Origin: a virus
Reading direction: 5' to 3' (one strand)
IMG/VR virus record: IMGVR_UViG_3300038629_000146
Coordinates: 1-43,589 of that record
Length of the DNA: 43,589 nt
This document shows positions 4,221 through 42,981 of the stretch, piece by piece. Below the pieces are notes generated by a model. It made no database searches, was not told the DNA's origin, and saw only the letters and a list, made by a program, of their open reading frames with translations. Within the stretch, counting starts at the first letter, position 1. Every line of letters begins with the position of its first letter. The translations under genes and the position numbers were made by a program.

Positions 4221-4442
4221 ATGCCCCCAGACCATCCCGACAGCGATCCCCTTCCCTCACTGGAAGTAAATGAGTGCGGTGACGAACTGCCCGGATGCGT
4301 CTTGCCGTTTCCGCAGGTGTGCGCCCACCCCGACTGTGAAAAAATACCTATCGTCGGCCTCAACAAACGCTTCGTTTGTGAGGATCATTTGAAATGGGTC
4401 ATGAAACCTCTTCGCGAAATTATTCGGCTCGTTAATGAATAA
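4221..4442 (+). CDS. Small Cys/His protein, putative zinc-binding
   Basis: A 73-residue protein with cysteines at ECGDELPGC, at VCAHPDC and at FVCEDH; the CAHPDC...CEDH part has the layout of a small zinc finger. The ribosome-binding site AGGAGGAG is very strong but can be masked by the hairpin upstream. It overlaps the Tat-signal gene by 8 bases. Function unknown. Confidence 0.55.
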   Translation: MPPDHPDSDPLPSLEVNECGDELPGCVLPFPQVCAHPDCEKIPIVGLNKRFVCEDHLKWVMKPLREIIRLVNE

Positions 4443-4701
4443 AACACGCAGAGGATTCCTTAAGAACCTTGGCGGAGCTGCTGCAGGCGCAGTTGCTTCT
4501 GTTGCAGCAGTAGCTGGTCCACGTGTCGAAGAAAAGGTTATTACGAAGACTCGTGTCGAGCACGAACTCGTTACTGAAAAACATTTTCTGACACATGGTG
4601 ACGGCACCAAAGAAGGTGATCGAGCCATGCTAAAGGTCGATGGTCACTTTCGATCTCACGTGCTACGAAACGGCAAGTGGGCGATGATGTTCCCCAATTA
4701 G
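4435..4701 (+). CDS. Small exported protein with twin-arginine (Tat) signal
   Basis: Residues 4-10 read TRRGFLK, matching the Tat consensus (S/T)RRxFLK, followed by a moderately hydrophobic, Ala/Gly-rich stretch (about 11-27) and a plausible AVA cleavage site before GPR. The mature part would be about 60 residues, basic and without cysteines. The Tat pathway exports folded proteins to the periplasm, so this product should leave the cytoplasm during infection. Tat signals are uncommon in phage proteins. Its function is unknown. Confidence 0.7.
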   Translation: MNKTRRGFLKNLGGAAAGAVASVAAVAGPRVEEKVITKTRVEHELVTEKHFLTHGDGTKEGDRAMLKVDGHFRSHVLRNGKWAMMFPN

Positions 4702-4709
4702 GAACTGCC

Positions 4710-5036
4710 ATGAACTGGACAATTATTAAGTGGGCAATCATAGCGGCTCTGGTGCTGGTCTCGTCGCTGGTGATAACTTATGTGCAGTACAACGGTCACT
4801 GGAGCATGGTCTACGAGGCTGTGCAGACGCCGGAAGTTCCCGGAGGGCAGAAACGATTCGTACTGTTCAACGAGGATGCATTGACGCGCCGGGAATGCAC
4901 TGCTCTCTTCGACGAGCATCTCCGCAGGTTGAACAACAACGCGTCGATCATCGAGTACGAAATAGGATGCGAATACCTGCGAACCAAGGGGCACGGCACT
5001 GAGTTCCAGTATCAAGATCAGTGGCTGATACCATGA
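4710..5036 (+). CDS. Single-pass membrane protein, periplasmic domain
   Basis: The ATG at 4710 places a hydrophobic segment (residues 5-25, IIKWAIIAALVLVSSLVITY) right at the N terminus, with GGA upstream; the longer frame from 4677 is not needed. The remaining 80 residues are soluble, with two cysteines (REC, GCEY), and would face the periplasm under the positive-inside rule. It lies between two Tat-signal genes, which suggests a shared envelope function. No family recognised. Confidence 0.6.
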   Translation: MNWTIIKWAIIAALVLVSSLVITYVQYNGHWSMVYEAVQTPEVPGGQKRFVLFNEDALTRRECTALFDEHLRRLNNNASIIEYEIGCEYLRTKGHGTEFQYQDQWLIP

Positions 5037-5365
5037 AACGAAGACAATTCATTAAAGGCGCAGTCGCTGCTGCAGTCGGTGCGGCATTACCACTAAGTGG
5101 GATAGCGCATCGCAGTCACGCGTGGTCGGCGGAATCCGACATGTGCCTCGTGTGCAGGATGACGATGCAGATGGTGCAGGAGACCGGACGGATCGAGTGT
5201 CCGGGCACGGCGCTCTACGACTACAAGACCTATAAAATTCACTTTACTCAAGAAGTTTTCTGTGAAGAAACGGCTGAGAAATATGCTAGGGCACTGGCGC
5301 ATTCGATGAGGCTGACCAAGGAGATGGTCGGAGTGAACGTATTCCACAGAGGATTTGGAGGATGA
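5033..5365 (+). CDS. Second exported protein with Tat signal and CxxC
   Basis: Starting at ATG 5033 (ATGA overlap), residues 2-8 read KRRQFIK, a clear twin-arginine motif, followed by an Ala-rich hydrophobic stretch (GAVAAAVGAALPLSGIA) and a likely cleavage after SHA near residue 30. A GTG at 5021 would add four residues. The mature part holds a CLVC pair and two more cysteines (ECPG, FCEE), which could bind metal or form disulfides. Not similar to the first Tat protein beyond the signal. Function unknown. Confidence 0.7.
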   Translation: MKRRQFIKGAVAAAVGAALPLSGIAHRSHAWSAESDMCLVCRMTMQMVQETGRIECPGTALYDYKTYKIHFTQEVFCEETAEKYARALAHSMRLTKEMVGVNVFHRGFGG

Positions 5366-5366
5366 C

Positions 5367-5957
5367 ATGAAACGATTACTCGCATTATTCTTACTGATGT
5401 TCGCGCTGCCAGTCTTCGCGCAGAACACCCTCACTTTCACTGCAGAGGTGACCTCCGGCGTGGAGGAGGTCGTTCCCGTTCTTACGTGGAACACAATACC
5501 TCTGGCTGATGCCTGTACAGCATCGGGCGATTGGGCCGGGGGTAAAGTACCGTCCGGGACAGAGACGCTGCCCGCGATAAGCGGGAGTGCAACTTATAAC
5601 CTTCAGTGCGAGTGGCTCGACGCGTCAGCAACTCTGACTTGGACGGCACCGACACAGAACACCGACGGAACTGCGTACACCGATCCGAAGGGGTTCAAGG
5701 TCTACTACGACATGACGCAAGGAGGACCGTACGAAAATGTCAACGACATCGCCGATCCGAATGCGACATCGCACATCGTGTTCCCACTTATTCCGGGGAC
5801 GTGGTTCTTCGTGTCCACCGCATACAATCAGAACGACGTGGAGTCGGAGATCAGCAACGAGGCTATGAAGATACTCGGACTGACCACTGAGACAGAGAGC
5901 GTTGGGATTACAGTCAACCCAAAGCCTGCCTCGCCGGAAAACCTCACCGTCCTATAG
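5367..5957 (+). CDS. Sec-secreted fibronectin type III-like protein
   Basis: The ATG at 5367 has GGAGG at 5357-5361 and begins with a standard Sec signal peptide (KRLLALFLLMFALPVFA, cleavage after residue 18). The centre (about residues 85-165) has the strand pattern of an Fn3 domain: LTWTAP, then GFKVYYD, then WFFVSTAYNQNDVESEISNE. Fn3 domains mediate protein or carbohydrate contacts. Secretion rather than virion assembly is suggested by the signal peptide and the neighbouring Tat genes. Confidence 0.6.
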   Translation: MKRLLALFLLMFALPVFAQNTLTFTAEVTSGVEEVVPVLTWNTIPLADACTASGDWAGGKVPSGTETLPAISGSATYNLQCEWLDASATLTWTAPTQNTDGTAYTDPKGFKVYYDMTQGGPYENVNDIADPNATSHIVFPLIPGTWFFVSTAYNQNDVESEISNEAMKILGLTTETESVGITVNPKPASPENLTVL

Positions 5958-5997: not shown

Positions 5998-6159
5998 ATG
6001 AGCAAGCGAAAGCAACAAGTGGTAAGACACGGGAAGGGAAAACATCGGACGGTCGGTCAACACGAAGAGGAACCGTGGTTCCAGAAGAAGCGAAACAAGA
6101 GTCGAAAGTCAACCAAGATCGCTAATCAAGCGAGACGAAATAACCGGAGAAAAAGATGA
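5998..6159 (+). CDS. Small highly basic protein, 53 residues
   Basis: A Lys/Arg-rich protein (SKRKQQVVRHGKGKHR at the start, RRNNRRKR at the end) with almost no hydrophobic core, so it probably binds nucleic acid. It ends in an ATGA overlap with the Acb2-like gene and is thus part of that transcript. A longer frame from 5902 overlaps the Fn3 gene and is rejected. The ribosome-binding site is weak. Confidence 0.5.
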   Translation: MSKRKQQVVRHGKGKHRTVGQHEEEPWFQKKRNKSRKSTKIANQARRNNRRKR

Positions 6160-6392
6160 GCGAGGGCGAAACAGTAAGTAGCGCGAGCGACGACCGAACG
6201 CGCAATAACGTGATGCGTCACGAGTATCGTATTTTAAGTGATGACGAGAAGCTGGCGATGCAAACTATCAAGGACGTGGGACGTGACTTTTACGAGCGCT
6301 TGTCTTGCATGGGGGAGAGTCGTGAACTCAGTCTCGCGAAGACCAAGATTGAAGAAGCGGTCATGTGGGGCGTCAAGCACTTAACGAAGTAA
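6156..6392 (+). CDS. acb2: Acb2/Tad1-like cyclic-nucleotide sponge (anti-CBASS)
   Basis: A 78-residue helical protein. From residue 14 on it matches the family pattern of Acb2/Tad1 hairpin proteins as I know it: RTRNN, HEYRILSDDEKLAMQTIKD, RELSLAKTKIEEAVMWGVKH. Acb2 proteins form hexamers that bind and sequester cyclic oligonucleotide signals of CBASS and blunt abortive infection. Tyr24 and Lys39 here have the same 15-residue spacing as the ligand-contacting Tyr11 and Lys26 reported for Acb2 (from memory). Which messenger it binds cannot be told. It lies in one operon with a Tad2-type gene, which supports a counter-defence role. Confidence 0.75.
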   Translation: MSEGETVSSASDDRTRNNVMRHEYRILSDDEKLAMQTIKDVGRDFYERLSCMGESRELSLAKTKIEEAVMWGVKHLTK

Positions 6393-6565
6393 TGGACGAT
6401 AAGAAACTCAAACAGATCGGCCACATCATCCGCTGGTCGTTGGAGTTGATTGTCATCTGGCTGTTCGCACTCCCGGAAACGGGGGTGTGGACGGCTTTCG
6501 TTTTTACGATGATAACTATAGGTATCGAGTGGGATCACATCGATCTGGAAGTTTGGAGAAAATAA
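6392..6565 (+). CDS. Small two-helix membrane protein in the counter-defence island
   Basis: Starts within the acb2 stop (TAATG). The 57 residues contain two hydrophobic segments (about 11-28, HIIRWSLELIVIWLFALP, and 31-46, VWTAFVFTMITIGIEW) joined by a short turn, with a charged tail. No family recognised. Its place between an Acb2-like and a Tad2 gene makes a role in countering membrane-acting defence effectors, or in superinfection exclusion, a reasonable guess but only that. Confidence 0.55.
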   Translation: MDDKKLKQIGHIIRWSLELIVIWLFALPETGVWTAFVFTMITIGIEWDHIDLEVWRK

Positions 6566-6581
6566 CGCAAAGGAGCGAAAG

Positions 6582-6809
6582 ATGGAAACGTTTGGAATCG
6601 GAAAAGCTGTAAAAGAAATGGAGAACGGCAGTCGCGTTTCTCGCGAAGGATGGAACGGGCCTGACCAGTACCTCGAACTGCAGGTGCCGGATGAGCACAG
6701 CAAGATGACGCTGCCGTACATCTACATCCGAACAGTGCAGGGAGATCTTGTACCTTGGCTCTGTTCGCAAACGGATATGTTGGCGAGAGACTGGTACGTC
6801 ACGGATTGA
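6582..6809 (+). CDS. tad2: Tad2-like anti-Thoeris protein (DUF2829)
   Basis: A 75-residue protein matching the DUF2829 pattern: REGWNG at 21-26, PYIYIRT at 45-51, PW at 58-59 and SQTDMLARDW at 62-71. DUF2829 includes Tad2, a phage protein that forms tetramers and sequesters the gcADPR signal made by Thoeris TIR enzymes; some relatives also bind other cyclic nucleotides. Full family length with no missing conserved block. AAAGGAG at 6569-6574 is a strong ribosome-binding site. The pairing with the acb2-like gene 190 bases upstream fits a counter-signalling island. Confidence 0.8.
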   Translation: METFGIGKAVKEMENGSRVSREGWNGPDQYLELQVPDEHSKMTLPYIYIRTVQGDLVPWLCSQTDMLARDWYVTD

Positions 6810-7018
6810 TGGAAGCGCAGATTCACGAACACGATAACTGGTGGTGGGCATGGACGCTCGCCCCCGGTTGGCCGCGTTTGAAATTTCACGCACACTTTAA
6901 AGAGAACGAACACGAACCAACGGTTCATCACTTCTGTGTCATGGGATTTGGGTACTCACTCGAAATTCGATGGGAACTACCTCGTTGGGAAAAAATTAGT
7001 CCGACAAAATTTTTCTAG
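6809..7018 (+). CDS. His/Trp-rich protein after tad2, 69 residues
   Basis: Begins in the tad2 stop (TGATG); a longer frame from a TTG at 6755 lies within tad2. The sequence is unusually rich in His, Trp and Phe (HDNWWWAWTLAPGWPR, HAHFKENEHEPTVHHFC). No signal peptide or membrane helix. I cannot name a family. Tight coupling to tad2 makes it a candidate for another counter-defence or metal-binding accessory protein. Confidence 0.55.
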   Translation: MEAQIHEHDNWWWAWTLAPGWPRLKFHAHFKENEHEPTVHHFCVMGFGYSLEIRWELPRWEKISPTKFF

Positions 7019-7030
7019 ATGTGCTATACT
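7001..7030 (+). promoter_or_regulatory. Sigma70-type promoter with extended -10
   Basis: CCGACA at 7001-7006 (4 of 6 match to TTGACA), an 18-base spacer and TATACT at 7025-7030 (5 of 6), preceded by TGC, an extended -10. Predicted start near 7037, a short leader with AAGGAG at 7049-7054, then the ATG at 7061. The spacer is A/T-rich. It is the best promoter match I found in the window. Confidence 0.65.
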
Positions 7031-7060: not shown

Positions 7061-7591
7061 ATGCCGACAGCTAGAGACTACGAACTCGTCGTAGAGAGAG
7101 TCTGGCGCGAAGGATCGACGTCAAGGCAACTACGTAACGTTCATCCAAACCTCGCCATGAATTTTGTGCGTGCGTTCTGGAGACAAGAGATGGGAGGCAA
7201 GTTCCCGTGGAGACTCCGCGTTGGTTCAGGCAATCGACGCACGTGGCTTGCTGACTTTGTGTTCACCGTCAACCCTGATCAGGGTTGGCACGACATCAAC
7301 CATGACATGAGTCACTTCATCGAACGTCGTAAGCATGGTGGTGCGCACACTGACTACCATGTACGACTGGAAGGTGCGGGAGCCAGACTGATCGTGCGCA
7401 GGTTCTTGCGCGATGAGCCCTACGTCGATCCCAAGAAAGGTCGTGACCGTGTTGCGGATCGTGCAGTCCGAGTGGACGCTGGAATCAAACGCTGGGACGC
7501 AAAGCTGAAGCGTGCGGTCAATGCGCTGAAGAAGCTCAAGAAACAACAACGTTACTATGATAAAGTTCTTGCTGAGCGCAACGCTCAATAA
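7061..7591 (+). CDS. Zincin-like protein with HDMSH motif
   Basis: A 176-residue protein with its own promoter and terminator. Residues 81-85 read HDMSH, an HDxxH variant of the HExxH zinc-peptidase motif, followed by HTDYH at 96-100 and Glu104, a layout (HDxSH, then HxxxHxxLE) that I have met in other unnamed phage proteins. The C-terminal 45 residues are a Lys-rich coiled coil (KLKRAVNALKKLKKQQRYY). Metal binding is likely; peptidase activity is uncertain because Glu is replaced by Asp. Target unknown. Confidence 0.5.
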   Translation: MPTARDYELVVERVWREGSTSRQLRNVHPNLAMNFVRAFWRQEMGGKFPWRLRVGSGNRRTWLADFVFTVNPDQGWHDINHDMSHFIERRKHGGAHTDYHVRLEGAGARLIVRRFLRDEPYVDPKKGRDRVADRAVRVDAGIKRWDAKLKRAVNALKKLKKQQRYYDKVLAERNAQ

Positions 7592-7617: not shown

Positions 7618-7644
7618 GGGACTCCTAGCGAGTCCCTTCTTTTT
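7618..7644 (+). terminator. Intrinsic terminator after the zincin-like gene
   Basis: GGGACTC at 7618-7624 and GAGTCCC at 7630-7636 form a perfect 7-bp stem with a CTAGC loop, followed directly by TTCTTTTT (7637-7644). This closes the 7061 transcription unit and separates it from the packaging genes. Confidence 0.85.
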
Positions 7645-7656
7645 GGGCTAAGCTCG

Positions 7657-7673
7657 CCTGACCATGGGTCAGG
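7657..7673 (+). promoter_or_regulatory. Perfect palindrome with the terL start codon in its loop
   Basis: CCTGACC at 7657-7663 and GGTCAGG at 7667-7673 are exact reverse complements flanking ATG 7664-7666, the first codon of the large terminase. No Shine-Dalgarno sequence is visible upstream. The element could be an RNA hairpin limiting terminase translation or a protein-binding operator. Confidence 0.4.
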
Positions 7674-9259
7674 TCATCTCGCTAAACTTTGGTCTCGTCC
7701 ACCAACCTCCATCGTTTGATTACGACTTCGACTTCGATGATCTCGACGACGAGATAAAAGAACAACTCCCTGAGAACACTGCCGAGGTATTGCAGATGTT
7801 CTCGGAGGAGGATCTGCACTTCCTGCGCTGGCGTATCTGTTGGCAGCGCATGGCACGCGAAAAACAATTACCTCCCGAAGAATTTCTCAACATGGAGAAG
7901 TTCATCTGGCTGATTCGGTCAGGTCGTGGATTCGGTAAAACGCTTACAGGTGCAAACTGGATTGGTGAACAGGCGTGGATGGTTCCGAGTTTCTACGCAG
8001 TCATCTCGCCGACGCACGACGATGTTCGGTACACATGCTTTGAAGGTCCAACGGGCCTGTACTCAGTTATTCCTCCATCCCTCATCCATGATCGGAACCA
8101 AGCACTGCCGTCTGTCACGCTGAAGAACGGGTCTATCATTCGTGGGTTTGCGGGGGACACTCCCGAGCGTTTACGTGGACCGCAGCATGCAGCCATCTGG
8201 TGCGACGAGATTGCATCTTGGAAATACCCTCAGGAGGCATGGGACAACATCCTCTTTGGATTGCGTCTCGGTGATACTCCGCGCATCTGCGTAACGGGTA
8301 CTCCTAAGCCCACTCCGTTCGTGCGCAGGTTGCAAGCGGACAAGCGCACCATAGATGTCGTGGGATCTACCTATGAAAACCGCGATAACCTGACTGACTA
8401 CTTCTTCGATTCGATTGCCAAGTACGAGGGCACACGCGTTGGTCGGCAGGAGATCTGGGGTGAGGTACTGGACCCGGAAGAAGAAGGTTTCGTACAGCGC
8501 AGCCAGTGGCGCGTCTGGCCCAGTGATAAGCCCCTGCCGAAGTTCACTTACATTGTCATGTCTTATGATCCGGCGTTTACGGAGCGGAACTTCGATAAGC
8601 GGAAGCAGGAGAATGATCCAACAGCCTGTTCTGTATGGGGTGTCTTCATGCTGCCGCGAAAGAATAAGCCGCCTCTCCCTCAGGTGATCCTGCTGGACTG
8701 TTGGGAAGATTGGCTGGGGTTCCCGAACCTGATTCGTCGCATCAAGAAAGAAAGAAAGTATACCTACGGGGATGCCGATGAGCCGCTGATTAAGCCGGTA
8801 ATTATTTCAAAAGCTAGGCGCGTCAAACACCAAGGACGTCGTCCCGACATCATCTTGATTGAAGAGAAAGCCTCCGGCATCTCTCTACGTCAGCAGTTGC
8901 TCGAAGAGAATATCTTGACTCACGGCTACAATCCGGGTAATGAAGACAAGCTAACGAGACTTCATTATGTTTCACCGATGTTCGCGGCGGGCAGAATATG
9001 GGCAGTTGAGTCAGAGATCAATCCGGGGAACTTTAAGACATGGGCAGATCCTCTCATCTCCCAAGTGTGTTCGTACGTCGGGCCGGGGTCTATCGAGCGC
9101 GACGATTTGCTCGATTCTGCGACGCAGGGGCTGCGCTTACTCATGGATAAATTCTTCGGTCCCTTCACGGTGGTTGACACAACTGAGGACCGCGAACGAG
9201 CACGCGCCCGTGAGATAGCAGAGCGACGCCTTGGTAAACGTGAGAATCCATATGGCTGA
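7664..9259 (+). CDS. terL: Terminase large subunit
   Basis: The packaging motor, with an N-terminal ATPase and a C-terminal RNase H-type nuclease, that loads DNA into the prohead through the portal. Residues 85-93 RSGRGFGKT form the Walker A loop, 177-182 AIWCDE the Walker B with catalytic Glu, and 211-216 TGTPKP the coupling motif. Nuclease acids are expected at Asp302 (MSYDPAF), Glu400/401 (ILIEEKASG) and the Asp480-Asp484 segment (DDLLDSATQGL). Length 531 is normal. The start at 7664 includes an acidic N-terminal stretch; ATG 7796, with GAGG upstream, is an alternative. The small subunit is not adjacent but lies at 42397. Confidence 0.95.
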   Translation: MGQVISLNFGLVHQPPSFDYDFDFDDLDDEIKEQLPENTAEVLQMFSEEDLHFLRWRICWQRMAREKQLPPEEFLNMEKFIWLIRSGRGFGKTLTGANWIGEQAWMVPSFYAVISPTHDDVRYTCFEGPTGLYSVIPPSLIHDRNQALPSVTLKNGSIIRGFAGDTPERLRGPQHAAIWCDEIASWKYPQEAWDNILFGLRLGDTPRICVTGTPKPTPFVRRLQADKRTIDVVGSTYENRDNLTDYFFDSIAKYEGTRVGRQEIWGEVLDPEEEGFVQRSQWRVWPSDKPLPKFTYIVMSYDPAFTERNFDKRKQENDPTACSVWGVFMLPRKNKPPLPQVILLDCWEDWLGFPNLIRRIKKERKYTYGDADEPLIKPVIISKARRVKHQGRRPDIILIEEKASGISLRQQLLEENILTHGYNPGNEDKLTRLHYVSPMFAAGRIWAVESEINPGNFKTWADPLISQVCSYVGPGSIERDDLLDSATQGLRLLMDKFFGPFTVVDTTEDRERARAREIAERRLGKRENPYG

Positions 9260-12543: not shown

Positions 12544-12741
12544 ATGCCCGCCGAGACTGTGATTTTGCAGAGACTTCTGCAAAGGCTGAAGGAGGAGCAA
12601 GCCGCGTGCGTTAACTTGCTGGCGACACCGAAAGACAAATCAGCTTTCGGATACGGTGAAGCAAGTGGCATGTACCATGGCTTGTGTCGCGCCGAGCAGC
12701 TGTTCGAGGAAGTAGTCGGGGAAGAAGAAGACAGGATCTAA
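12544..12741 (+). CDS. Small helical phage protein, 65 residues
   Basis: Helical and acidic, with LQRLLQRLKEEQAACVNLL followed by DKSAFGYGEASGMYHGLCR; this pattern recurs in small phage proteins near head genes, but I know no function for it. AGGA precedes the ATG. The stop overlaps the groES-like gene as TAATG, coupling the two. Confidence 0.55.
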   Translation: MPAETVILQRLLQRLKEEQAACVNLLATPKDKSAFGYGEASGMYHGLCRAEQLFEEVVGEEEDRI

Positions 12742-13193
12742 TGATGGTTGCAAGTATGAGTGAACGAATCGCGCTGGACTACGACAATGTAGATCAAGCT
12801 TTTCCGGAAGTGGATGCGGGCTTGGTGCCGTTTGGCAGCAGAGTTTTGGTTCAAAAACGCTCGCCCAAAAAGCGCCTGAAGAGCGGAATCATTGTTCCAG
12901 ATGATGTCCGGGAGACTGAGTTTTGGAACACTCAGGTCGCTAAAGTCATCTTGCTTGGACCGGGTGCTTTCAAGAATCGCGACACTCTGGAGGTCTGGCC
13001 GGAAGGCGAGTGGGCACAGCCGGGAATGTATGTACGAGTTCCCAAGTACGGAGGCGACAAATGGTTCGTCGAAGTGCCTGAAGAAGAGGCGGAAAAAACA
13101 GGCGTCGATAAAGCGTGCTTCGTGCTCTTCAACGATTTGGATCTGAGTGGTCAAATCACGTGTAACCCAATGGATGTAATCGCTTATCTGTAG
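12741..13193 (+). CDS. Phage GroES-like co-chaperonin
   Basis: About 150 residues; from residue 28 it follows the GroES fold: VPFGSRVLVQKR (strand 1), a basic loop, SGIIVPD at 48-54 (end of the mobile loop that docks on GroEL), VAKVILLGPGA at 67-76, and PGMYVRVPKYGG at 94-105, ending FVLFNDLDLSGQI. It is longer than bacterial GroES (about 95) because of an N-terminal extension and two inserts. Phage co-chaperonins such as T4 gp31 replace GroES so that host GroEL can fold capsid protein. The position just before scaffold and capsid genes supports this. ATGs at 12741, 12744 and 12756 are possible starts. Confidence 0.8.
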   Translation: MMVASMSERIALDYDNVDQAFPEVDAGLVPFGSRVLVQKRSPKKRLKSGIIVPDDVRETEFWNTQVAKVILLGPGAFKNRDTLEVWPEGEWAQPGMYVRVPKYGGDKWFVEVPEEEAEKTGVDKACFVLFNDLDLSGQITCNPMDVIAYL

Positions 13194-40187: not shown

Positions 40188-42397
40188 TGGCTACATCAGA
40201 AGAAGAGCTACTTAAGCAGCTCGCCGAGCTGGAGGGGAACCAAGCTCGAATTGATGAGCCGATCATGACGGCACCACCCGGTGCCGGTCCCGAAGGTCTG
40301 GGTCTGGGTGAGCAAGGAGCACTTGACGTGCGGGCAGACATCGCAGCTCTGGAACAGCCCGGAGAGAGACAACTCATTCAGAGTCAGCTCGAAGCTACAG
40401 GCTCTGCGGCAGCTGGAAGGATGGTTCCGGAACGACCAGAACGTGTGAATCCTTACGCACCTGATCCCGATGATCAGCCAGAGCGGGTGAATCCTTACGC
40501 ACCACGTGAGGGACGGGAGCAGAGAGATATCGACTTCCCGACACCCTTCCCCATGGAACGGGGCACGTCACGTGCATCGTTGCAGTTGCCTGAACTGGGT
40601 TCGCAAATCGGTACGTCACAGTTCTTCCCTGAGGACTACCCGAAGTGGGCGCAGGCGGCACTGACGTCAGCAATCATGACAACGACTGACCCGAATGAGA
40701 TCGCGCAGATCTTTACGCAGGAGGTCGAGTACGAGGACCCGAATACGGGTGAGATGACATCGACGCGGATGTTCCCTGACATCGGCATACAACAAGCTCC
40801 CGATGGCACGTTGATTGTGAACAATTCCAAGACAGGTGCACAAGCCATCATCAACCGTCCCGGCCTCAGTGGTTTCGATTGGATGCAGATGGGAGTCATC
40901 GGTGCTGCGTACACACCTGCCGGTCGTGTTGCCTCACTGGCAGCAGCACCTGCACGTGCAGCAGCTGTTCATGCAGCTAAAGAGGTTGCTAGCAATACAG
41001 CAAGACGACTGGCAATCAGACAAGCCCGAAAGAAAGGCTCAATGGCTTTGATGGCTGGATCAGGTGTAACCGAAACGGGTCTCCAAGCTGGGCAGCAAGC
41101 TGCCGGTGGTGAGTTCAATAAAGCTGAAGTTGCACTGAGTACTGCGTTCGGCATCGTGCCTGACTACGTGTTCGATCCTCTGGCAAGGACGATGACGAAG
41201 ATTCCCAGTCTCCTCGCAAAGAAAGCTGCTGACGTCGTTCCCGAGCACATTCAGCAAGCTATCCGGTACGCGAAGGAAACTGGTCGGCAGATCATGACCA
41301 GCGATGCAATCGGAGATCGCATTACGCCTGCCATGAATATCTTTACCAAGATCGTCGAGCGTATTCCTCTCTCAGGTACCGGTCGGGCGCGCAAGAGAAT
41401 GGGACGAGAGCGCGTCGATGCACTGACAGAGATCGCTGCTAAGTACGGCATTGATGTCGAAACGGATTACGGTACGAAAGTAATGCAAAGTTTCGTCGAG
41501 CGCATGAAAGGACAGCGTTTCTGGGGGAAAAATGCAGACTTAATAGATAAGATCCCGTATTACCCTCCAGAGGCACGCGCAGCTGGTCAGAAACGTGCAG
41601 CTGACCTGATCGAGGCTGCGTGGGTGAGAGAGGCGGATGATCTCTCCGCAGGCGTCTTGAAAACGGCAATCCAGACGAACAAGATCGATGACGTTGTCGT
41701 CGATAAAGTAATGAGGGCAGGCAGACCCAAACTGCTTACCGAATTGTTTGAGAGGCTGGGATCAAAAGGGCAAGAGGCTGCACGCAGTCGGTTTCTCCTC
41801 CAAGGTCTGGAGAAAGCTAGCTGGACAAAGTCAGCTCCCGGTGTCGCAGATCCGAAAAAATTCATGGCGTTCCTTGACCGACCTGCTAATAAAAAGGTCA
41901 TTAAGGCGTGGTTCGGCCCGGAAGATCAGGAAATGCTTAAAGGTGTACGTGAGTACTTGCGCCTGACAGCCTCAGCGCAAGAAACAGGCAAAGGTGCAGG
42001 CATGGTCGCTGCCGTTTCAGCTGGTGCAGGTAGCATCAGTCTGTTCGCTGGAATGTTTAATGCTTTAATCGGGGGCACAGCAATCGTAAGTGGCATAGGA
42101 CATACCTACCAGAGTTCGTTCGTGCGTAACCGTCTGCTGAAGCTGGCGCATACGAAAGGTGATGAAGCACAGACTGCTGCCATCATGAGAGATCTGGTGC
42201 CTTACTTCATTGCGGCTGAGCAGCAATGGAAGGGAGAGAACTACTCCTTCCCCAACGTGAACATCACGCAAGAGTCACTCAAAGAAGGTGGTGAGGATCT
42301 CATGATGAATCTGGAAGATTTAGCATCGTCTGCTATCGGTGACATCGGACAGATCCCGGACAAACTGGTGAGATTTTTCAAGGGTGACGAACAGTAA
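40187..42397 (+). CDS. Ejection-type internal virion protein (736 residues)
   Basis: Starts in the previous stop (TAATG). The N-terminal part is Pro/Glu-rich with a direct repeat PERVNPYAP (two copies). Residues 255-330 are Ala-rich and helical (GRVASLAAAPARAAAVHAAK), and there is one strongly hydrophobic stretch near 605-640 (AGAGSISLFAGMFNALIGGT). The architecture of long helical, partly membrane-active protein matches the large internal proteins of podoviruses that form a conduit for DNA. No lytic transglycosylase motif is visible. Confidence 0.55.
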   Translation: MATSEEELLKQLAELEGNQARIDEPIMTAPPGAGPEGLGLGEQGALDVRADIAALEQPGERQLIQSQLEATGSAAAGRMVPERPERVNPYAPDPDDQPERVNPYAPREGREQRDIDFPTPFPMERGTSRASLQLPELGSQIGTSQFFPEDYPKWAQAALTSAIMTTTDPNEIAQIFTQEVEYEDPNTGEMTSTRMFPDIGIQQAPDGTLIVNNSKTGAQAIINRPGLSGFDWMQMGVIGAAYTPAGRVASLAAAPARAAAVHAAKEVASNTARRLAIRQARKKGSMALMAGSGVTETGLQAGQQAAGGEFNKAEVALSTAFGIVPDYVFDPLARTMTKIPSLLAKKAADVVPEHIQQAIRYAKETGRQIMTSDAIGDRITPAMNIFTKIVERIPLSGTGRARKRMGRERVDALTEIAAKYGIDVETDYGTKVMQSFVERMKGQRFWGKNADLIDKIPYYPPEARAAGQKRAADLIEAAWVREADDLSAGVLKTAIQTNKIDDVVVDKVMRAGRPKLLTELFERLGSKGQEAARSRFLLQGLEKASWTKSAPGVADPKKFMAFLDRPANKKVIKAWFGPEDQEMLKGVREYLRLTASAQETGKGAGMVAAVSAGAGSISLFAGMFNALIGGTAIVSGIGHTYQSSFVRNRLLKLAHTKGDEAQTAAIMRDLVPYFIAAEQQWKGENYSFPNVNITQESLKEGGEDLMMNLEDLASSAIGDIGQIPDKLVRFFKGDEQ

Positions 42398-42981
42398 TGC
42401 CTGCACGACGACTGACAAACGGAAAGAGAAAGCGGCAGTTCGTACGGAACACGGCAGGGCATCTGCTTGCTGAGCGTAATCGTATGTTCCTCCCCGATCA
42501 CCTTGAGCAAGTGCGTGCGATTGCGATGCGTGGTGTCAGCGAAGAACAGATGTGCGAGATCTTTGACATCGGTTCCCGGCAAATGGGTCTGTGGAAATCA
42601 CAGTACCCGTTGTTCAAGGAAGCACTCGAAGGGGGCTACACCGATGCTGATGCTGCTGTGCTTGGTGCCTTGTATCAAAGCGCTGTCGGTTACACGCACG
42701 ACGAAGAGAAAATTTTTCAATGGGACGGAGAAATTGTTCGTGCCGAGACGGTTAAGCATTACAAGCCAGACATCGCTGCGGTTAAACTGTGGCTGACCAA
42801 CCGGCAGAAAGAACACTGGAAGGATCGTCATCACTCCAGCGTGTCCGGTACGGATGACAACTCACCCATCGGCATTCGTGACGAGACGAAGATGGAAGTC
42901 ATGGCAAGTATTCTTTCACTGATCAAACCGAAACCAGACAACGCGACCATCGACGGTCGTACCGGAAAGGTGGATGAGTAG
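42397..42981 (+). CDS. terS: Terminase small subunit-like protein
   Basis: A 194-residue protein with a basic N terminus and a helix-turn-helix-like segment (about 35-75: LEQVRAIAMRGVSEEQMCEI, then GSRQMGLWKSQYPLFKEAL), then VLGALYQSAVGYTHDEEKIF and PDIAAVKLWLTNRQKEHWKD, which match phage small-terminase proteins. Small terminases recognise the packaging site and regulate TerL. Here the gene is at the far end of the structural cluster, 33 kb from terL. TAATG overlap with the previous gene. Confidence 0.75.
   Translation: MPARRLTNGKRKRQFVRNTAGHLLAERNRMFLPDHLEQVRAIAMRGVSEEQMCEIFDIGSRQMGLWKSQYPLFKEALEGGYTDADAAVLGALYQSAVGYTHDEEKIFQWDGEIVRAETVKHYKPDIAAVKLWLTNRQKEHWKDRHHSSVSGTDDNSPIGIRDETKMEVMASILSLIKPKPDNATIDGRTGKVDE

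Follow-up and report, generated by a model that had tools for sequence, protein, structure and literature searches.

The question raised by this locus was whether two small viral genes that lie close together upstream of a terminase gene form a unit directed against the nucleotide signals of host defence systems. The DNA analyzed here (the window) is an IMG/VR record 43,589 bases long, and sequences of this kind can be fragments. It had been proposed in an earlier note that an Acb2/Tad1-like sponge and Tad2 are placed here in one operon. We found that five small plus-strand genes follow one another in close succession and code for a 53-aa, an Acb2-type, a 57-aa, a Tad2-like and a 69-aa protein, after which come a 176-aa gene and terL. 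The Acb2-type and Tad2-like ORFs were located exactly where they had been placed before (6156-6392 and 6582-6809). The range given for the island, 6156-7018, was right at its start, but its end belongs to a third ORF, the 69-aa one. The features of the region are as follows.

5998 to 6159, plus strand: gene for a very basic 53-aa protein; ATGA, its stop overlapping the Acb2-type start (from the sequence).
6156 to 6392, plus strand: putative Acb2-type sponge, 78 aa, with helices 29-50 and 56-77 and ligand-site residues Y24, K39 and T63 (PF24729, PDB profile, model).
6392 to 6565, plus strand: gene for a 57-aa protein, a backbone gene of the phage group; TAATG overlap with the Acb2-type ORF (relatives in terL-related records).
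6459 to 6496, plus strand: terminator-like hairpin inside the 57-aa gene, with a 17-bp stem, GAAA loop and T-rich tail (fold energy, terminator scan).
6582 to 6809, plus strand: putative Tad2-like sponge, 75 aa, of minimal form, the loop between strands 2 and 3 carrying no insertion (PF11195, PDB, model).
6809 to 7018, plus strand: Trp-rich 69-aa ORF with its ATG at 6809, overlapping the Tad2 stop by 1 bp (from the sequence).
7001 to 7030, plus strand: promoter-like site with TG-extended second hexamer, 9 of 12 matches, ahead of the backbone gene at 7061.
7061 to 7591, plus strand: 176-aa backbone gene (from the sequence).
7618 to 7636, plus strand: terminator-like hairpin, 3' of the 176-aa backbone gene and 5' of terL (terminator scan).
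7664 to 9259, plus strand: terL, terminase large subunit in PHROGs.

The Tad2-like gene starts 16 bp downstream of the 57-aa stop and has AAGGAG ahead of its start. Neither the 53-aa protein nor the Trp-rich 69-aa ORF had a Pfam or PHROGs family or a relative among the related loci compared. Promoter-like sites in the region numbered 5 against 2.9 expected, a weak excess near chance level.

The protein encoded at 6156-6392 matched Pfam PF24729 (Acb2_Tad1_hairpin) with 58.6 bits (E 7e-16, cut-off 27), and this model matched 0 of 14 control genomes; the proposed membership in the Acb2/Tad1 hairpin family was thus confirmed. A PDB profile search, built from 63 aligned sequences, reached Acb2 (8ixz/8h2j, E 5e-11) and T4 Vs.4 (1e-5), and further "Acb2 homolog 43" (2e-5) and Tad1 (2.5e-4). 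A single-sequence PDB search of the same protein returned WD-40-type repeat proteins in 9 of 11 rows; these were rejected as a 14-residue chance match multiplied by repeats. The Tyr/Lys spacing of the known ligand site, which had also been pointed out earlier, was recovered in the alignments: Y24 and K39, 15 residues apart, correspond to Y11 and K26 of Acb2 chain 8h2j and to Y9 and K24 (chain numbering) of T4 Vs.4 (7uq2), in both cases 15 apart. K26 is presumably a ligand contact, and no paper fitting the residue names Y11 and K26 was found in the literature searched. T63 aligns with T68 of T4 Acb2 (chain number 69 in 7uq2). Y24 and K39 were each conserved in 43 of 43 window-type rows and T63 in 42, the rows being the window protein plus 42 of the 80 Acb2 relatives fetched (the best 80 of 148). 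Going by the accessible text of the papers cited, Y8A in T4 Acb2 disrupts cyclic dinucleotide binding (PMC12657218, PMC12657230), T68M lowers affinity (PMC12657230), and F82 stacks on the ligand (PMC12657218, PMC12657230).

The position of this stacking F82 is occupied by T77 in the window protein, and by Thr in all 43 window-type rows. Such a substitution would fit a hairpin protein that belongs to the family by sequence and has another ligand or another role, for example in virion assembly. The latter would agree with the position of a window-type relative in Sinorhizobium phage Aussie (L082, 4001-4237), which is annotated as hypothetical and lies between the head-to-tail adaptor and stopper genes. 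However, Y24, K39 and T63 are conserved, and the profile search reaches solved cGAMP-binding Acb2 at 5e-11. Besides, Pseudomonas Acb2 has Ala at the F82 position, and a Phe there was therefore not taken as family-defining. A different ligand or role thus appears quite improbable to us. Structure prediction was of little help here. The AlphaFold2 monomer (pLDDT 83.6; helices 13-16, 29-50 and 56-77) was a helical hairpin whose N terminus is loose, and its best Foldseek E was 0.34; 8h2x_D aligned with TM 0.62 and rmsd 1.6, not above other helical hairpins, and VIA-align gave Z of 6.4 and 5.9 amid unrelated helical rows. A helical hairpin fits many unrelated chains about equally, and fold comparison was dropped as support; the Acb2 assignment rests on sequence because the fold search cannot separate the model from other hairpins.

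The second protein was assigned by both approaches. The ORF at 6582-6809 matched PF11195 (Tad2-like) with 80.2 bits (E 1.6e-22, cut-off 25), a model that matched 1 of 14 control genomes (Lactococcus lactis), and a PDB sequence search found the solved chains of SptTad2, ModTad2, SPO1 Gp34.65 and AcrIIA7. Its AlphaFold2 model (pLDDT 94.3) matched SPO1 Tad2 (8wje; Foldseek E 1.9e-6, TM 0.87) as well as ModTad2 with hisADPR, HgmTad2 and SptTad2; the solved matches include gcADPR and hisADPR complexes, and all 24 chains at E <= 0.001 were Tad2/AcrIIA7 entries. PADLOC matched 0 of 4 window proteins. Among the relatives in PF11195 are chains whose deposited name is AcrIIA7 or "Inhibitor of Type II CRISPR-Cas system", and the window protein might accordingly be an AcrIIA7-like anti-CRISPR, instead of or besides an anti-Thoeris sponge. 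However, 8kbk is by its title a solved structure of AcrIIA7 with 1',2'-cADPR and cGG, so that sponge chemistry is a shared property, and we consider an anti-CRISPR function very unlikely.

The description of this protein as a full-length DUF2829/Tad2 held for the Pfam profile, of which positions 3-72 of 73 were covered, but not for the first loop. By an alignment-based count, the stretch between N25 and Y46 comprises only 20 residues, where most of the insertion-bearing Tad2s in the samples have 27-38, and SPO1 Tad2 and ModTad2 have 13 more loop residues. The loop of the subfamily reads PDEHSKMTLPY; when the window Tad2 was aligned with 53 of its 80 relatives (the best 80 of 136), P36, K41, M42 and Y46 did not vary in any of the 54 rows. 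According to the accessible part of a review, Tad2 binds cyclic dinucleotides via an insertion that is located between strands 2 and 5 and is separate from the gcADPR pockets (PMC12043709). This insertion, which some Tad2s use for cyclic dinucleotides and which is not universal among them, is absent from the window Tad2 as judged by loop length. It has been reported, in the text available from these papers, that ModTad2 binds His-ADPR (PMC13299392) and that SPO1 Tad2 does not bind 3'3'-cGAMP (PMC11722364). Because SPO1 Tad2 has the longer loop and does not bind this ligand, the insertion alone is not enough for cyclic dinucleotides; and since both SPO1 Tad2 and ModTad2 have a longer loop than the window Tad2, the link between insertion and ligand is loose. 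The missing insertion, together with the ligand of ModTad2, suggests that the window Tad2 may serve ADP-ribose-type signals, although this reasoning is not tight.

We then considered whether the two genes occur together elsewhere, using the best 80 of 148 (Acb2), 136 (Tad2), 312 (bacterial contigs) and 348 (long Tad2) relatives. Among 80 whole viral records with relatives of the window Tad2 (the best 80 of 136), Acb2_Tad1_hairpin was over the cut-off in 21 (16 of 50 and 5 of 30); 25 had matched at E <= 0.001, and the four under the Pfam cut-off, none of them within 500 bp of Tad2, were dropped. In 14 of these 21 two-gene records Acb2 lay within 500 bp of Tad2 on the same strand, a count that includes near-identical records (two hold the same pair); uniform placement would give 1.9, and none of 200,000 draws reached the observed value. 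For the 14 two-gene records of at least 15 kb, the numbers were 8 adjacent versus 0.5 expected. The order was Acb2-first in 7 of the 14 adjacent records and Tad2-first in 7. Removal of similar Tad2s at 85% identity left 62 non-redundant Tad2 loci; in 12 of these a profile search placed an Acb2-type gene on the same strand and no more than 1 kb away, and among the neighbour families found, the Acb2 type was the commonest for Tad2s of the window kind. From the Acb2 side the pairing was rare: Tad2 was present in 4 of 80 viral Acb2 records (the best 80 of 148), in all four within 500 bp, and in 0 of 3 named phages with window-type Acb2.

Adjacency of this kind could be functionally meaningless if both were ordinary small cargo genes carried in the same accessory zone near terminase genes. 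Indeed, the region before terL is variable in the window's relatives, where Acb2 and Tad2 occur singly, together or not at all, and two of the pairs on bacterial contigs described below also lie upstream of a terminase small subunit gene. However, where both genes lay in the flanks fetched (5 kb or less), 14 of 15 pairs were at most 500 bp apart, where about 14% would be expected by uniform placement in a 10-kb locus (P ~1e-11, a value that ignores shorter loci and relatedness). Moreover, when neighbours were sorted into BLAST groups, which is less sensitive than the profile search, the two largest groups (4 and 3 loci) were both of the Acb2 type and the others reached at most 2 of 62 loci; a hotspot only 1 kb wide would still account for such adjacency. 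Taken together, hitchhiking in a common hotspot seems to us rather unlikely.

An adjacent pair was found in 5 of 79 usable bacterial Tad2 loci (from the best 80 of 312), assigned by record titles to Paenibacillus bouchesdurhonensis, Lysinibacillus boronitolerans, Mycolicibacterium sphagni, a Marinosulfonomonas MAG and a Flavobacteriaceae MAG. The sponge ORFs overlap by 4 bp in the Paenibacillus and by 1 bp in the Lysinibacillus contig, and in both the pair is followed by a terminase small subunit gene (Pfam Terminase_2), in Lysinibacillus also by a Terminase_3 large subunit; no terminase family was found among the ORFs tested at the Mycolicibacterium and Marinosulfonomonas pair loci. Judged by eye, the Acb2 partners comprise the window type, the Pseudomonas/T4 type (GYRDLS) and two or more other types of hairpin (FNPS..., YHAP...). 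Of 24 paired Tad2s, not de-duplicated, 10 had Acb2 first and 14 had Tad2 first. On a FastTree tree of 239 Tad2s with 24 paired tips, the paired state changes at least 21 times, the tree being soft (about 75 residues) and gain being indistinguishable from loss. The pairing thus recurs in many, often unrelated, phage sequences and looks selected, not accidental. The proposal of a compact anti-signalling module is therefore supported more strongly than the earlier note could know, since the same pair adjoins in many other records.

A possible dependence of the pairing on the Tad2 loop was also noticed. An adjacent Acb2 was present for 16 of 117 Tad2s without the first loop insertion and 1 of 79 insertion-bearing ones (non-redundant, alignment-based; Fisher P 0.0016); of these 16, 11 belong to the sample obtained with the window Tad2 as query, and some of the proteins that went into the Acb2 profile were themselves paired. 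In the two remaining samples combined, 5 of 58 insertion-less and 1 of 78 insertion-bearing Tad2s were paired (P 0.08). Pattern-based sorting by loop length left 76 of 238 Tad2s unsorted and gave no significant pairing difference, and the Tad2s of 4 of the 5 bacterial-contig pairs have another insertion further on. We regard the sequence-based association of Acb2 adjacency with Tad2 loop class as a lead only. In whole records of the long-Tad2 sample, Acb2 was over the Pfam cut-off in 7 of 79 (from the best 80 of 348). Among the best 80 of 348 long-Tad2 loci, an insertion-bearing Tad2 was adjacent to Acb2 on the same strand in a single case, that of L371 and L378, two loci with identical Tad2 and Acb2 proteins.

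For the phage group to which the window belongs, 25 terL relatives were available, with Acb2 over the cut-off in 4, Tad2 in 5 and both in 2; 14 of the 25 records were mapped gene by gene. One of the two-sponge relatives, a 7.9-kb record, has the order Acb2, Tad2, terL, its Tad2 match ending 17 bp before terL, and the second has its pair ~9.5 kb upstream of terL. Three further relatives carry Tad2 without Acb2 at a third place, and one has the 57-aa gene followed by the 176-aa gene with ~70 bp between them and no sponge gene. The window is therefore a looser variant of the pair, in which Tad2 and the 69-aa ORF stand between two backbone genes and Acb2 stands just before them. The 57-aa protein has a hydrophobic stretch (by eye), which suggests a membrane protein, and no Pfam or PHROGs family. 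Its relatives occur in 8 of the 14 mapped records, and 3 of these 8 carry neither sponge gene, which rules it out as a third member of the module.

The intervening gene also bears on the claim that the sponges belong to one operon. Gene spacing suggests this, but the claim is not secure: co-transcription is uncertain because the 57-aa gene carries the strong terminator-like hairpin at 6459-6496 (MFE -34.3 kcal/mol, z -7.9), followed by TTCGTTTTTA. A comparable fold was absent in 8 of 8 relatives of the gene (z between -1.0 and 0.7), and the hairpin may be a peculiarity of the window phage. As predicted from the sequence, transcription could be terminated or attenuated at this point between the two sponge genes, which would uncouple Tad2 from Acb2.

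Several observations concern the phage as a whole. No integrase or repressor family was found among the 39 window proteins scanned with PHROGs. The same scan found no replication family, and part of the genome may therefore be missing. A terminase small subunit gene lies at the right end (42397-42981; PHROG 309, E 7e-34) and terL at 7664, so that the record may represent a permuted or truncated sequence. The nearest relatives of terL in the phages collection are those of Caulobacter phages (51% identity), which does not fix the host. The view in the earlier note of a virulent-looking phage, with hosts that use such signalling systems, is accordingly tentative. In the cargo zone, 4435-4701 and 5021-5365 code for small proteins with twin-arginine-like N termini, whose relatives recur in the same phage group; the 5021 protein alone was over the Pfam cut-off for TAT_signal (25.2 bits), and the 4435 protein was recognized by eye. 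At 5355-5957 a 200-aa protein is encoded whose N terminus looks signal-like by eye; its fibronectin type III match is weak and, with 19.6 bits, falls short of the cut-off (25). The ORF at 12684-13193 gave a weak GroES co-chaperonin-like match (PHROG 3188, E 5.5e-5).

We propose that the locus contains a recurrent two-sponge module, in which the Acb2-type protein would take the cyclic oligonucleotides of CBASS and Tad2 the ADP-ribose-type signals of Thoeris, and we give this reading a probability of roughly 0.64. In our analysis it rests on family membership, conserved ligand-site residues and recurrent adjacency; oligomeric state, ligands, division of labour and benefit in infection are what we infer. 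Both proteins would act as phage sponges, capturing nucleotide alarm signals and keeping them bound without cleaving them. The Acb2-type protein is most likely a hexamer holding CBASS cyclic di- and trinucleotides, and the small Tad2 most likely a tetramer holding an ADP-ribose-type Thoeris signal (gcADPR isomers or His-ADPR); lacking the loop insertion, the latter probably takes no cyclic dinucleotides. Phages appear to have re-assembled the pair repeatedly, in several cases just upstream of terminase genes, and one locus could thereby provide protection against two families of signalling defences. Ligand complementation is the best present explanation of the coupling. A more specific version, which is tentative and in our view somewhat doubtful, is that Acb2 and an insertion-less Tad2 form a selected, repeatedly re-assembled two-gene unit, a "split Tad1", in which the hairpin would supply cyclic-oligonucleotide sites and Tad2 the ADP-ribose sites, phages with a cyclic-dinucleotide-binding Tad2 having less need of the partner. 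In its boldest form, the two proteins would form a joint particle.

In the open literature searched on Acb2, Tad1 and Tad2, with subscription papers and some preprints outside the search, no mention was found of Acb2 and Tad2 genes side by side. Clustering of anti-defence genes is already known as a principle, and "anti-defense islands" are described in general in dbAPIS, as far as the accessible text of these sources goes. Both proteins are members of known families; what goes beyond routine annotation is the recurrent coupling of a window-kind Tad2 with Acb2-type hairpins. Sponges are treated singly in the portions of the literature searched, and here a pair of unrelated sponges recurs in both orders, in phages and in bacterial contigs of several phyla. 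This recurrence suggests frequent encounters of phages with CBASS-like and Thoeris-like signalling in combination, and a division of ligands between two small proteins is predicted from it. It also offers a search rule, in that genes recurring beside a window-kind Tad2 are candidate anti-signalling genes. The available text of PMC12657218 describes Panoptes defence as set off by Acb2, by 2 of 4 Tad1s and slightly by 1 of 4 Tad2s. A two-sponge unit would accordingly carry a measurable cost, because Acb2, some Tad1s and one Tad2 set off this defence.

Compared with known systems, the window Tad2 resembles gene 4 of Mycobacterium phage Curiosium (L085, 774-992), also a short Tad2 (69.7% identical over 66 residues) located ~1 kb upstream of a terminase gene; unlike the window, Curiosium has no Acb2-type gene on either strand of the 4,977 bases examined. 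With the solved Tad2s (SPO1 Gp34.65, 8sme; ModTad2, 8v3e; SptTad2, 8wjd; HgmTad2/AcrIIA7, 8kbi) it shares the fold and the core motif GWNG ... W(L)xSQTD ... DW, but these proteins have 88-104 aa, whereas the window Tad2 has 75 aa, no loop insertion and the strongly conserved PDEHSKMTLPY. The Acb2-type protein resembles Acb2 of Pseudomonas phage p26 (8h2j) and T4 Vs.4 (7uq2) in its hairpin domain, its Tyr-Lys spacing of 15 and its conserved helix-2 Thr. It differs in its length of only 78 aa, the turn being short at the place where the solved proteins carry 21-24 additional residues, in a conserved N-terminal NNVMRH stretch, and in the lack of Phe at the T4 F82 position. With Tad1 (CbTad1, 7uav/8smd) it has in common the Acb2/Tad1 hairpin domain (PF24729; profile E 2.5e-4). 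Tad1 has an N-terminal beta sheet, as stated in the accessible part of a review (PMC12043709). This sheet helps to form the gcADPR pocket, and the 78-aa Acb2 model contains no strands: the window protein is a hairpin with a short N terminus, whereas Tad1 chains have 123-138 aa. Acb2 and Tad2 together would cover approximately the ligand range of Tad1 alone.
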